This document shows, in pieces, positions 45,251-49,464 of a stretch of DNA of 64,000 nt. This stretch comes from an uncultured Pelagibacteraceae bacterium (lineage in GTDB: Bacteria; Pseudomonadota; Alphaproteobacteria; Pelagibacterales; Pelagibacteraceae). The stretch spans positions 45,071 through 109,070 of the forward strand of contig CACMHW010000003.1 of NCBI GenBank assembly GCA_902613545.1. Direction: 5' to 3'. The position numbers and the translations under genes are program-made. The notes beneath the pieces are model-generated. The model was not told the DNA's origin. It saw only the letters and a program-made list of their open reading frames with translations, and did not search any database. Position 1 is the stretch's first letter. Each line of letters begins with the position of its first letter.

Positions 45251-45649
45251 ATGCGCATGAGTAATTCATTTCATTTAGCAATTCCTGCAGGAGACTTAAA
45301 AAAAGCAGAGGCTTTTTATACAGAGATTTTGGGATGTAAAACTGGAAACCGTGAAGACGGAAAATGGGTAGATATCGATTTTTGGGGTAACGAGTTAACC
45401 TTACACCAAACGTCCATGAAACTCCCTAGAGAGAGACATGATGTTGACATGGGTCAGGTTCCAGTTCCACACTTCGGTGTTCATTTAAAAAAAGATATTT
45501 TCAATAAAATTAAGGCTAATATAGAGTCTAATAAACTAAATTATATTGATAAACCTTACACAAGGTTTGAAGGAACTGAATTTGAGCAAAATACATTTTT
45601 CATAGAAGATCCAAATGGAAATGTATTAGAGTTAAAAACGTTTGATTAA
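45251..45649 (+). CDS. VOC/glyoxalase-family protein
   Basis: 132 aa; [42 protein letters not shown]. Confidence 0.88.
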
Positions 45650-46982
45650 TAAATCTCAACTCATCAAAAACAAAAGTCATTTAATTCAATATTTCAACGA
45701 TGGAATAAAAAATGAAAGCCAACTTAAAATTGGTGTAGAACATGAAAAATTTCTTTTTAATAAAAATGATTTAAAGAGAATTGATTACAACCAAATAAAA
45801 ACAGTATTTGAAATCTTAAGTAATAAAGGTTGGGAATTACAACATGAAAAGGACAAAGTAATAGGTTTAAAGAGAAAAAATCAGAAAATTACAACAGAGC
45901 CAGGATTTCAATATGAGTTATCAGGCGAACCTTTTAAAAATATTCATTCAGTTTGTTCAGAAAATAATACTCATTTTAATGAGTTAAAAGAAGTTTTTAA
46001 TTCAGTCTCTATAACTACTTCTTCGATAGCTTACGATCCGTTTAATAAGTTAAGCGATATCCCAAATAGTCCAAAAGAGCGTTATAAAATCATGACGGCT
46101 GAAATGCCAAAAGGTGGAAGGCTAAGTTTGGATATGATGTATAAAACAGCAGGTATTCAAATTAACTATGATTATATTTCTGAAGATGATTTTGAAAAAA
46201 AATTTAAAATTGGGAATTATTTAGCTCCTCTAACAATAGCTCTATTTGCAAATTCTCCTTTTACTGAAAATAAACTTTCAGGTTTTTTATCTTATAGGAG
46301 TAAAGTTTGGCAAGAAACTAATAGAGGCGGAATAATGCCAATTACTTTTGAGTCGGTTAATTTCGAAAAATATGTTGATAATGTAATTAATTACCCAATA
46401 CTTTTTCTTAAAAAGAATAAAAGATATTATTCACCTAATGGTCAAACATTTAATGATTACTTAAATGGTAATTTAAATTTTTTAAAAGGACAAAAACCAA
46501 CTTTCGAAGATTTTGAAAATCATCTTGGTACTATTTTCACAGAAGTAAGATTAAAACAAGTTATAGAATTTAGATCACTAGATACTTGTAATTTTGGATG
46601 TATTTGTAATGGGCCCTCTTTTTTTACAGGACTAATTTATGGCTCAATAGATGAAACTTATGAGATAATAAAAAACTGGAGAAAAGAAGAAGTAATGCAA
46701 GCCTATTTGAATGCTCCTAAACTAGGATTAAATGCGACATTGGAAGGTAAAAAGCTAATTGATTGGGCAAGGATATTCTTTGATCTTTCTAAAAAAGGTT
46801 TAGAAAAAAGAAATGAGGTTAATAAAAGTGGAAAGAATGAAACGATTTATTTAAAACATATAGAAGAAATAATTGAGAGTAAAAAAACTAGAGCAGAAAT
46901 GTTGATTGAACAATTTAATAAAACAAAAAACTTGAACTTCCTAGTAAATCATGACGAAAATTTTAGCTATACAGGGTTCTGA
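45642..46982 (+). CDS. gshA: Glutamate-cysteine ligase (plant/proteobacterial GCS2 type)
   Basis: 446 aa; LKIGVEHEKFLF; EPGFQYELSGEPFKNIHSVCSE; RGGIMPITFE. Confidence 0.9.
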   Translation: MINKSQLIKNKSHLIQYFNDGIKNESQLKIGVEHEKFLFNKNDLKRIDYNQIKTVFEILSNKGWELQHEKDKVIGLKRKNQKITTEPGFQYELSGEPFKNIHSVCSENNTHFNELKEVFNSVSITTSSIAYDPFNKLSDIPNSPKERYKIMTAEMPKGGRLSLDMMYKTAGIQINYDYISEDDFEKKFKIGNYLAPLTIALFANSPFTENKLSGFLSYRSKVWQETNRGGIMPITFESVNFEKYVDNVINYPILFLKKNKRYYSPNGQTFNDYLNGNLNFLKGQKPTFEDFENHLGTIFTEVRLKQVIEFRSLDTCNFGCICNGPSFFTGLIYGSIDETYEIIKNWRKEEVMQAYLNAPKLGLNATLEGKKLIDWARIFFDLSKKGLEKRNEVNKSGKNETIYLKHIEEIIESKKTRAEMLIEQFNKTKNLNFLVNHDENFSYTGF

Positions 46983-47868
46983 CCTAAAAAAAGTTAATAT
47001 CAAAACTGATACAACTATTCTCTTAGCAACTGAAGCACAAAAAAGAGGCTATAAAGTTTATTATTTTAGACCTGAAGATCTAAGTTTTTTAAATGGAAAA
47101 GTTGTAGCCTTTTGTAAACATATAAAAATTAACAATAATAAAAAGAATTTCTACTCAATTTTAAAGACTATTAATTTTAATTTAGAAAAATCTAATGTAA
47201 TTTTAATTAGAAACGATCCACCTTTTAATAGCCGTTATTTGTATACAACTTTCTTACTCAATCATATTTCTAGAAAAGTTAAGATAATTAATCATCCTTT
47301 TGCAGTAAGAAACGTATCAGAAAAGATGTTTTCAATTAATTTTATGAAGTATATGCCTCCTACTTTAATAAGTGAAAATCAAAAAGAAATAAAAAAATTT
47401 TTCAAAAAACAAAAATCAGTTGTGGTTAAACCTATTGATGGTTTTAGTGGAAACAACGTTATTTTATTGAAATCTTTCAATGCTAGTAAAATCAGAAAAT
47501 TACTTAAAAAAAATAATCATTTATTTTTTCAAAAGTTTCTTCCTGAAGTTTCTAGAGGAGATAAAAGAGTTTTTATTATTAAAGGTAAGATTGTAGGCGC
47601 TATATCTAGAGTCCCGAAAAAGGGGAGTATTTTATCGAATATGAGCAAAGGAGCTCACGCTAAATTAACTAAGCTTACAAATAAGGAAAGAAAAGCAAGT
47701 AGAGCTGTTGGGAAGTTGCTCGTCAAAAATAAAATTTATTTCGCCGGTATTGATTTTGTACAAGAGAAATTAATAGGTGATATTAATGTAACTAGCCCAA
47801 CCGGCCTTGCAGTTTATAGAGATTTATCAGGCATAAACCTTTCAAAAACGTTCTGGAATAACATTTAA
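46951..47868 (+). CDS. gshB: Glutathione synthase (ATP-grasp)
   Basis: 305 aa; VILIRNDPPFNSRYLYTTFLL; VVKPIDGFSGNNV; GIDFVQEKLIGDINVTSPTG. Confidence 0.92.
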   Translation: MTKILAIQGSDLKKVNIKTDTTILLATEAQKRGYKVYYFRPEDLSFLNGKVVAFCKHIKINNNKKNFYSILKTINFNLEKSNVILIRNDPPFNSRYLYTTFLLNHISRKVKIINHPFAVRNVSEKMFSINFMKYMPPTLISENQKEIKKFFKKQKSVVVKPIDGFSGNNVILLKSFNASKIRKLLKKNNHLFFQKFLPEVSRGDKRVFIIKGKIVGAISRVPKKGSILSNMSKGAHAKLTKLTNKERKASRAVGKLLVKNKIYFAGIDFVQEKLIGDINVTSPTGLAVYRDLSGINLSKTFWNNI

Positions 47869-47910
47869 TAAACATTTGACAAAATGATTATTTATTTGCT
47901 ATAAACTTTA

Positions 47911-47962
47911 TAGCGCCGAGTTAAGGCAACTTGCGGGCGCTTAAAAAATCCAGCTAAAGCGT
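47911..47962 (+). promoter_or_regulatory. SAM-II riboswitch aptamer
   Basis: GCGCCGAGTTAAGGCAACTTGCGGGCGCTTAAAAAATCCAGCTAAAG; P1 GCGCC/GGCGC, GAgTTAA core and AGCTAAA 3' segment as in SAM-II. Confidence 0.85.
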
Positions 47963-47975
47963 CAGAGTCTTTCGG

Positions 47976-48004
47976 ACCACCGCTTTAGTCGGTGGTTTTT
48001 TTTT
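47976..48004 (+). terminator. Intrinsic terminator/expression platform of the SAM-II riboswitch
   Basis: ACCACCG-CTTTAGT-CGGTGGT followed by a T run. Confidence 0.88.
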
Positions 48005-48023
48005 GGAACAATCTAAAATTAAA

Positions 48024-48080
48024 CCGGGTATTTGAACCATATTGTACACCTGGCATATGCCAAAGTACTAAAAAGGAGAA
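48024..48080 (+). promoter_or_regulatory. SAM-V-like riboswitch adjacent to a Shine-Dalgarno
   Basis: H-type pseudoknot: P1 GGTAT (48027-31)/ATGCC (48057-61), P2 GTAC (48044-47)/GTAC (48065-68), then TAAAAAGGAGAA. Confidence 0.7.
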
Positions 48081-48081
48081 G

Positions 48082-48159
48082 ATGAATAGAATTAAACTTC
48101 GTTCATTCTTCTCCAGAAAGACGGAGAAAAAATGTTCGAAACGACAAGAGAAACAGTAA
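48082..48159 (+). CDS. uORF1 in metY leader (25 aa, MNRIKLRSFFSRKTEKKCSKRQEKQ)
   Basis: AAGGAGAAG immediately 5' of ATG at 48082; TAA at 48157; same frame as metY. Confidence 0.55.
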   Translation: MNRIKLRSFFSRKTEKKCSKRQEKQ

Positions 48160-48179
48160 GGGGGAAAATCAATGACTGA
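48132..48179 (+). CDS. uORF2 in metY leader (15 aa, MFETTRETVRGKIND)
   Basis: CGGAGAAAAA 5' of ATG at 48132; TGA at 48177-48179 overlaps the metY start (ATGACTGA). Confidence 0.5.
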   Translation: MFETTRETVRGKIND

Positions 48180-49464
48180 TTTTAAACATCCGGAAACTAT
48201 TGGCTTACATGGTAGTGATTACAGAGCTGATCCTACTACAACAGCTGTAGCAGTTCCAATTTACCAAACAACTTCTTACCAATTTAAAAATGCGGAACAC
48301 GCAGCAAATTTATTTGGTCTAAAAGAATTTGGTAATATTTACACACGTATCATGAACCCGACTGTAGATGTGCTAGAAAAAAGAGTTGCAGCGCTTGAAG
48401 GCGGTGTAGCAGCATGTGCAGTAGGATCAGGCCAAGCAGCATCAGCTATGTGTATTCAAAACTTAGCACAAGCTGGAGATAATATTGTTGCTTCAACCGA
48501 CTTATACGGAGGTACAGTAAACTTATTTAAAAATACTTTAAGACAACAAGGTATTGAAGTTAGATTTGCAGATCCTGCAGATCCAAAAAACTTCGAAAAA
48601 GTGACTGATGATAAAACAAGAGCTTACTATGGTGAGACTCTTCCAAATCCTTATCTTCGTGTTTTTCCAATTAAAGAAGTTTCTGATATCGGTAGAAAAA
48701 AAGGTATTCCTTTAATTATCGATAACACAGCTTCGCCAGTAATATGTAAACCTTTAGCTCATGGAGCTGCAATTGTGATGCACTCATTGACAAAATATAT
48801 CGGCGGTCATGGTACTTCAATTGGAGGAATAATTGTAGATGGAGGAAATTTTGATTGGATTAAAGATAGAAAAAGACAACCTCTATTAAATGAACCAGAT
48901 CAAAGTTATCACGGTGCAGTTTGGGCAGATGCAGTTCCACAATTAACTGGAGCTAATATCCCGTTTGTCATCAGAGCAAGAGTGGTTTTATTGAGAGACT
49001 TAGGTGCTCCTTTAAGTCCGTTCAATGCTTTTCAAATCATTCAAGGTTTGGAAACTGTAGCTTTAAGAATGAAACAACACTGTAGTAATGCAGAGAAAGT
49101 TGTGAATTTCTTAGATGGTCACAAAAAAGTTAAAAAAGTAATCTATCCAACTAATTATCAAGGTGAAATTAGAGATAGAGCTAAAAAATATATGCAAGGT
49201 GGTTATGGATCTTTAATAGGTATGGATCTAGGAACAAAAGAAGCAGGAGCTAAGTTTATTGATAACTTAAAAATGCTTTACCACGTAGCAAATATTGGTG
49301 ATGCCAGAAGTTTAGCAATTCATCCAGCTACAACAACTCACAGTCAATTAACTGAGAAAGAAATGTTAGCTGCAGGTGTTACACCAGGTTACGTAAGATT
49401 GTCGATTGGTATAGAACATCCAGACGATATTGTTGCGGATATCAAGCAAGCTTTAGCTGCTTAA
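48172..49464 (+). CDS. metY: O-acetylhomoserine (thiol)-lyase
   Basis: 430 aa; MTDFKHPETIGLHG, AVAVPIYQTTSYQFKN, HSLTKYIGGHGTSIGG, SLAIHPATTTHSQLTE. Confidence 0.96.
   Translation: MTDFKHPETIGLHGSDYRADPTTTAVAVPIYQTTSYQFKNAEHAANLFGLKEFGNIYTRIMNPTVDVLEKRVAALEGGVAACAVGSGQAASAMCIQNLAQAGDNIVASTDLYGGTVNLFKNTLRQQGIEVRFADPADPKNFEKVTDDKTRAYYGETLPNPYLRVFPIKEVSDIGRKKGIPLIIDNTASPVICKPLAHGAAIVMHSLTKYIGGHGTSIGGIIVDGGNFDWIKDRKRQPLLNEPDQSYHGAVWADAVPQLTGANIPFVIRARVVLLRDLGAPLSPFNAFQIIQGLETVALRMKQHCSNAEKVVNFLDGHKKVKKVIYPTNYQGEIRDRAKKYMQGGYGSLIGMDLGTKEAGAKFIDNLKMLYHVANIGDARSLAIHPATTTHSQLTEKEMLAAGVTPGYVRLSIGIEHPDDIVADIKQALAA

Follow-up and report, generated by a model that had tools for sequence, protein, structure and literature searches.

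Published accounts of the SAM-V riboswitch, in the portions of those papers considered here, describe an aptamer that acts directly on the ribosome-binding site (PMC2704228, PMC9481103, PMC6061858) and typically sits within ten nucleotides of the start codon (PMC2704228). On SAM binding, a 2-bp helix (P2a) between nucleotides 14-15 and the beginning of the Shine-Dalgarno (SD) sequence has been proposed from the crystal structure (PMC6061858). A SAM-II and a SAM-V in series are known from the bhmT leader of Pelagibacter ubique HTCC1062 (PMC5069961, PMC9481103, PMC11508383), in which the SAM-II unit is reported to be a working one (PMC5069961); setting the published intergenic coordinates (PMC2704228) against our own SAM-V match places bhmT about 67 nt past that aptamer. 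The metY leader studied here, which lies in a 64,000-nt stretch of DNA (the window), resembles this tandem in the order of its aptamers, in the terminator that follows SAM-II and in its regulon, and differs from it in that the regulated gene is metY rather than bhmT and that a short upstream open reading frame (uORF) intervenes. We argue that it is probably a two-level SAM OFF switch, in which a SAM-II transcription gate is followed by a SAM-V strand-exchange gate on a second SD and by coupling of a mini-ORF (uORF2) to metY, and that this layout probably arose through loss of bhmT.

Organisation of the gshB-metY interval

Between gshB and metY the window holds a SAM-II-like aptamer, a T-tailed terminator, a SAM-V and then two short ORFs (Table 1); the Rfam matches and folds thus confirm the tandem that a first-pass annotation of this DNA had reported, as they do a SAM-V ending at AAAAAGGAGAAG, for which the RF01826 score lies far above the gathering value. 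Judged from its sequence the downstream aptamer is a SAM-V with an atypical expression platform: instead of an SD within about 10 nt of the regulated gene's start, only the short uORF1 begins close behind it, and metY follows some 90 nt on, so that, as had been proposed, metY makes no direct use of the SAM-V SD.

Table 1. Coordinates of genes and leader elements in the window
Feature	Position	Strand	Remarks
gshA	45642-46982		
gshB	46951-47868		
SAM-II (SAM_alpha) aptamer	47903-47977	+	RF00521, 24.8 bits (gathering 36)
Antiterminator helix	47953-47989	+	GCUAAAGCG (47953-47961) with CGCUUUAGU (47981-47989), 9 bp
Intrinsic terminator with T tail	47974-48004	+	-10.1 kcal/mol, z -4.9
SAM-V aptamer	48017-48081	+	RF01826, 74.4 bits, E 7.7e-12 (gathering 41)
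CC, 5' strand of SAM-V P2a	48037-48038	+	Expected partner GG 48075-48076 when SAM is bound
SD1 (GGAG)	48075-48078	+	3' end of SAM-V; proposed anti-anti-SD strand (sequence, folds)
H1 hairpin	48075-48114	+	Predicted ON state; SD1 and uORF1 AUG paired with GUUCAUUCUUCUCC
uORF1	48082-48159	+	25 codons long here; in the window's lineage probably incidental
Anti-SD (UUCUUCUCC)	48106-48114	+	Common to H1 and H2 (folds)
H2 hairpin	48109-48128	+	Predicted OFF state; anti-SD UUCUCC with SD2 GGAGAA
SD2 (GGAG)	48123-48126	+	5 nt ahead of uORF2 AUG (sequence)
uORF2	48132-48179	+	15 codons; its stop and the metY start overlap (ATGACTGA)
SD3 (AAGGGGG)	48158-48164	+	metY's own SD, within uORF2; strongly conserved in 60 leaders
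metY	48172-49464	+	O-acetylhomoserine sulfhydrylase; TIGR01326, 574.8 bits (cut-off 495.1)

The upstream aptamer falls short of the RF00521 gathering score and is classed here as SAM-II-like. This low score is no counter-evidence, because the same model gives no listing for the HTCC1062 bhmT SAM-II even at E<=1; with a functional SAM-II scoring lower still, the Rfam score alone is uninformative as a test. A GCUAAAG motif is found upstream in 60/60 long metY leaders. A segment of the aptamer pairs in an antiterminator (-13.5 kcal/mol, z -4.2 against shuffles) that is mutually exclusive with the T-tailed terminator and, since both folds lie far beyond those of shuffled sequences, the tandem is real. 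Terminator-like structure recurs in 58 of the 60 leaders.

SAM-V is present in 191/297 genomes of the family, and we compared the downstream layout at 100 SAM-V loci, chosen by SAM-V match and genus irrespective of platform. Three layouts occur: a direct one, in which the gene (metY in many genomes, or mmuM) starts a few nucleotides after the SAM-V SD, long metY leaders of about 90 nt, that of the window included, and long bhmT leaders of about 60-75 nt. Further long leaders were collected from named SAR11 genomes, HIMB058 included, and by a pattern search in 83/169 genomes of the window's genus and 15/399 of the Pelagibacter genus; this search, the source of many of the long leaders, itself demanded GGAG...CTCC...GGAG, whilst 37 metY and 11 bhmT long leaders were picked on SAM-V score alone. 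The layout of the window's leader was found again in more than 100 relatives and the leader is conserved over 60 unique metY leaders, which share ancestry, so that counts given below do not represent independent events. Two loci (L021, L251) carry SAM-V and an H1-like hairpin with no recognised met gene downstream, and are possibly decaying remnants left after gene loss. Matches to sau-66, FuFi-1 and similar Rfam families fell below threshold and were set aside as noise.

Two predicted hairpins competing for one anti-SD

Downstream of the SAM-V core, a single anti-SD can enter either of two exclusive helices, an arrangement of anti-SD and anti-anti-SD that rests on structure prediction together with covariation. 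The last six bases of the H1 3' arm, UUCUCC, have an alternative partner in the GGAGAA at SD2. H1, in which the opening codons of uORF1 are paired along with SD1, has a folding energy of -17.0 kcal/mol (z -4.6; 0/200 shuffles as good), and H2, at -7.6 kcal/mol alone, becomes the best fold once GG 48075-48076 is blocked. Hairpins of 13-21 bp equivalent to H1 are present in 87/87 unique leader cores, with stem sequences that diverge widely between clades whilst pairing is retained: three comparisons gave 97% paired vs 52% after partner shuffling, 93% vs 65% and 86% vs 50%, a level reached by 0/1000 shuffles, and sliding the register by one left an excess at only 1/9 positions. Pairs were counted in fixed registers, without conditioning on the fold, because MAFFT, when all long leaders were aligned together, set the stem arms of bhmT leaders from sister genomes out of place.

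Blocking the two guanines, in folds calculated without pseudoknots or SAM and hence as a stand-in for the SAM-bound state, lowers the predicted openness of SD2 in the window from 0.998 to 0.04. The same treatment brings the 40 unique metY leaders down from 0.99 to 0.07, with H2 the best fold in 39/40, and the HTCC1062 bhmT leader from 0.99 to 0.35. The bhmT leaders are more closely balanced than those of metY (0.49 to 0.02), and in 22/45 of them H2 wins even while SD1 is left unblocked, i.e. the ON state is not favoured everywhere. Shuffled controls retaining SD1, anti-SD and SD2 reach the ON state in only 18% of cases. These models suggest that SAM would shift the equilibrium between H1 and H2.

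The same three-part design of SD1, anti-SD and SD2 stands ahead of bhmT and of a metE-like gene. In the HTCC1062 leader (L018) the second SD is GAGG, and 69 nt separate SD1 from the start of bhmT. The long platform ahead of a metE-like gene (B12-independent methionine synthase family) was seen at three loci, L180 (1235-1300 onward), L239 and L325, and in L180 metY is the next gene. A C-rich motif (CCCUC/CCCCU or similar) occupies the H1 loop in long bhmT leaders of Pelagibacter and sister genomes (L123, L127, L281 and L043 amongst them) and is absent from the main metY clade.

A difference within the aptamer itself accompanies these platforms. By our own mapping of the published numbering (PMC6061858), nucleotides 14-15 correspond to CC 48037-48038 in the window and their partner to GG 48075-48076. 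At this position 111/112 SAM-Vs with a long leader have CC, and 76/76 with a short leader have CU; amongst 20 further loci drawn without regard to platform, the sole long leader has CC and 18/19 short leaders do not. Pooled, CC stands opposite the SD1 guanines in 112/113 long-leader and 1/95 direct-leader SAM-Vs, the exceptions being a direct-leader bhmT with CC (L331) and a long leader with CU (L295). Direct-leader bhmT genes in another family of the order (L323, L324) have CU, so that CC tracks the platform and not the gene, which weakens an explanation of the pattern as a mere difference between bhmT and metY paralogues. The whole CC/CU pattern could, as one possibility, descend from a single ancient split. 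In the pairing model, CC would give a stronger P2a, as competition with H1 for the strand would need. We lean, with some reserve, towards two forms of SAM-V in SAR11: a direct form, in which P2a has CU and the gene itself uses the SD, and a relayed form, in which P2a has CC and the SD serves as an exchange strand within a second gate, one that opens or closes a later SD. The HTCC1062 bhmT tandem would then belong to the relayed form, and loss of bhmT would have put the gate on the metY mini-ORF. The difference between CU and CC, a single base in one strand of the aptamer, goes hand in hand with a change of expression platform.

The metY mini-ORF and the bhmT-metY junction

Both short ORFs exist exactly as the first-pass annotation gave them, and its description of uORF2, with an SD of its own and a stop overlapping the metY start, holds in 60/60 unique long metY leaders. 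The frame is open in every one, with the stop always at +8 of metY; an in-frame 3-nt deletion amongst these leaders leaves it open, and in L154 and L218 the start has moved by 3 nt with the frame retained. The overlap reads AUGNNUGA in 60/60; L163 and L180, where the UGA is absent, retain an overlap in the form UAAUG. In metY codon 2 the third base, which completes the UGA, is T in all 60 leaders across GCT, ACT, TCT, GGT and AGT codons; direct-leader metY genes with a four-fold codon at this position have T18/A16/C3. Synonymous bias in uORF2 is weak, with 11/26 distinct variants synonymous vs 24% expected, so that a strong coding signal was discarded as an argument and frame, stop and four-fold site are the better evidence. 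Taken from sequence, these features suggest that translation of uORF2 is coupled to that of metY. SD3 is about half open in local folds, so that some initiation on metY may bypass uORF2. A structure hiding SD3 together with the metY AUG was considered and rejected, the only candidate being a weak AAAAUCA/UGAUUUU hairpin with the AUG in its loop and SD3 half open.

The origin of this mini-ORF is indicated by sister genomes, in which the same locus reads gshA, gshB, SAM-II/SAM-V leader, bhmT and metY. There the gap between bhmT and metY, GGAGGCTATAATAATATGAAAAAAGAAACGACAAGAGAAACAATAAGGGGGAAAATCAATGGCTGA, contains uORF2, preceded by an SD of its own and overlapping metY as in the window, and no SAM-V lies beside uORF2 in this gap; its presence between the two genes indicates that uORF2 belongs to metY. 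SD2 serves bhmT in these genomes, mostly at a spacing of 5-7 nt. Comparison of the sequences suggests that the window's lineage probably lost bhmT, joining the SD2 of that gene to uORF2, a direction of change that we infer from the platform also preceding bhmT in Pelagibacter, which makes loss the simplest history. Two other arrangements occur: a bhmT-metY pair without uORF2 (L316), and a bhmT that precedes a second SAM-V-like aptamer, which stands immediately before a metE-like gene (L280).

Proposed mechanism, alternatives and known systems

The elements, their conservation, the covariation and the bhmT-metY junction are present in the compared sequences, and from them we infer a SAM-dependent exchange and a coupling that would operate as follows. 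At high SAM, by homology and folding, SAM-II would use its exclusive antiterminator and terminator to end transcription. On messages that are nevertheless completed, metY would not be under direct SAM-V control: without SAM, SD1 would pair with the anti-SD in H1 and leave SD2 free, whilst in the SAM-bound aptamer the P2a CC:GG pairs would capture two guanines of SD1, H1 would lose its base and the anti-SD would fold onto SD2 in H2, shutting it. SD2 is proposed to start uORF2, and ribosomes finishing uORF2 to re-initiate on metY, aided by SD3. Historically, removal of bhmT from a gshA-gshB-[SAM-II/SAM-V]-bhmT-uORF2-metY locus would have left the switchable SD2 to start the metY mini-ORF. If true, the loss of a gene has here connected a riboswitch to a new output, a coupled mini-ORF, in cells that are amongst the most abundant in the ocean.

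The first-pass annotation had instead placed uORF1 under SAM-V and drawn a chain from uORF1 through uORF2 to metY. In such a relay, without SAM, SD1 would load uORF1, and its ribosomes would melt H1/H2, finish at or close to the uORF2 start and couple to uORF2 and then metY. The second link of this chain agrees with the overlap in 60/60 leaders. For the first, 39/60 metY leaders have a uORF1 whose end forms AUGA with the uORF2 start; in the remaining 21 it is broken or displaced by an early stop, a 1-nt indel frameshift, fusion to uORF2 or the window's own extended form, in which the frame, shared with metY, runs on until its UAA touches the gene's own SD (UAAGGGGG). That form of the uORF1 end (ATGTTC) is unusual, most relatives stopping earlier. 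Moreover, the uORF1 AUG lies only 3 nt past GGAG and within the 13-21 bp H1, so that gating of uORF1 by SAM-V is not borne out. Of the two ORFs only uORF1 shows starts and stops that vary beside conserved aptamers, which the same annotation had named as grounds for abandoning its proposal. In the bhmT leaders of sister genomes (L043 and others) SD1 is followed at ideal spacing by a uORF of about 20 codons (...RFHLSPV...), which is open, with its stop overlapping the bhmT start, in 18/19, and here a role for uORF1 is possible; four leaders of the HTCC1062 type (L018, L215, L265, L295) retain a 23-24-codon ORF ending at +14 of bhmT, beginning 11 nt after SD1 in L018; however, 23/31 other Pelagibacter long bhmT leaders lack any start codon 3-14 nt after SD1. 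We accordingly reject, for the metY clade, a conserved relay role of uORF1, and loading through it seems unlikely as the working mechanism; judged from sequence, uORF1 is probably incidental in the window's lineage.

Less probable still is regulation by SAM-II transcription control alone, with SAM-V and H1 as relics and metY freely translated from SD3. The strong conservation and partial openness of SD3 would suit this reading, as would the retention of SAM-II with a terminator in 58/60 leaders, but the SAM-V core and the P2a CC persist, H1 keeps its covariation and the uORF2 stop is retained at a four-fold degenerate site, and a streamlined genome would be expected to lose relics. We give very little weight to a 30S subunit loaded on SD1 reaching the downstream start directly, with no strand exchange. 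Whilst the S. meliloti metA SAM-II sets a precedent over 74 nt (PMC9373788), against the 90 nt here, such loading would leave unexplained a good, conserved SD2 at 5-nt spacing and an anti-SD complementary to both SDs, and H1 would hide the very SD1 that it requires. Strand exchange on SD2 followed by coupling through uORF2 accommodates these features and is the reading that we prefer.

Set against described systems, the direct-leader metY SAM-V (PMC6061858, PDB 6FZ0) belongs to the same aptamer class, with SAM hiding the adjoining SD through P2a; there the SD serves metY and P2a has CU, whereas in the window P2a has CC and the SD, as the proposed exchange strand, lies 90 nt from metY. A second SD, an anti-SD platform or a uORF associated with SAM-V is not described in the portions compared of PMC2704228, PMC9481103 and PMC6061858. 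In S. meliloti metA (PMC9373788) the SD of the SAM-II aptamer is likewise needed for a start well downstream, but that leader has an in-frame second AUG with a terminator between the AUGs, and the part of the account considered here reports neither an exchange between anti-SD and a second SD nor an overlapping uORF. Closest in principle is the M. tuberculosis ppe2 B12 riboswitch, which acts through uPPE2 (PMC11260477): as proposed here, it is a translational OFF switch with anti- and anti-anti- elements where translation is initiated, and its uORF overlaps the gene stop to start, with termination-reinitiation leading to the gene, a layout like that of the window. It differs in riboswitch class, ligand and phylum, and was tested experimentally, whereas the present switch is predicted. 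Since the ppe2 switch is established as a uORF termination-reinitiation relay, the relay principle is already known; its combination with SAM-V and an exchange between SD1, anti-SD and SD2 is, to our knowledge, new.
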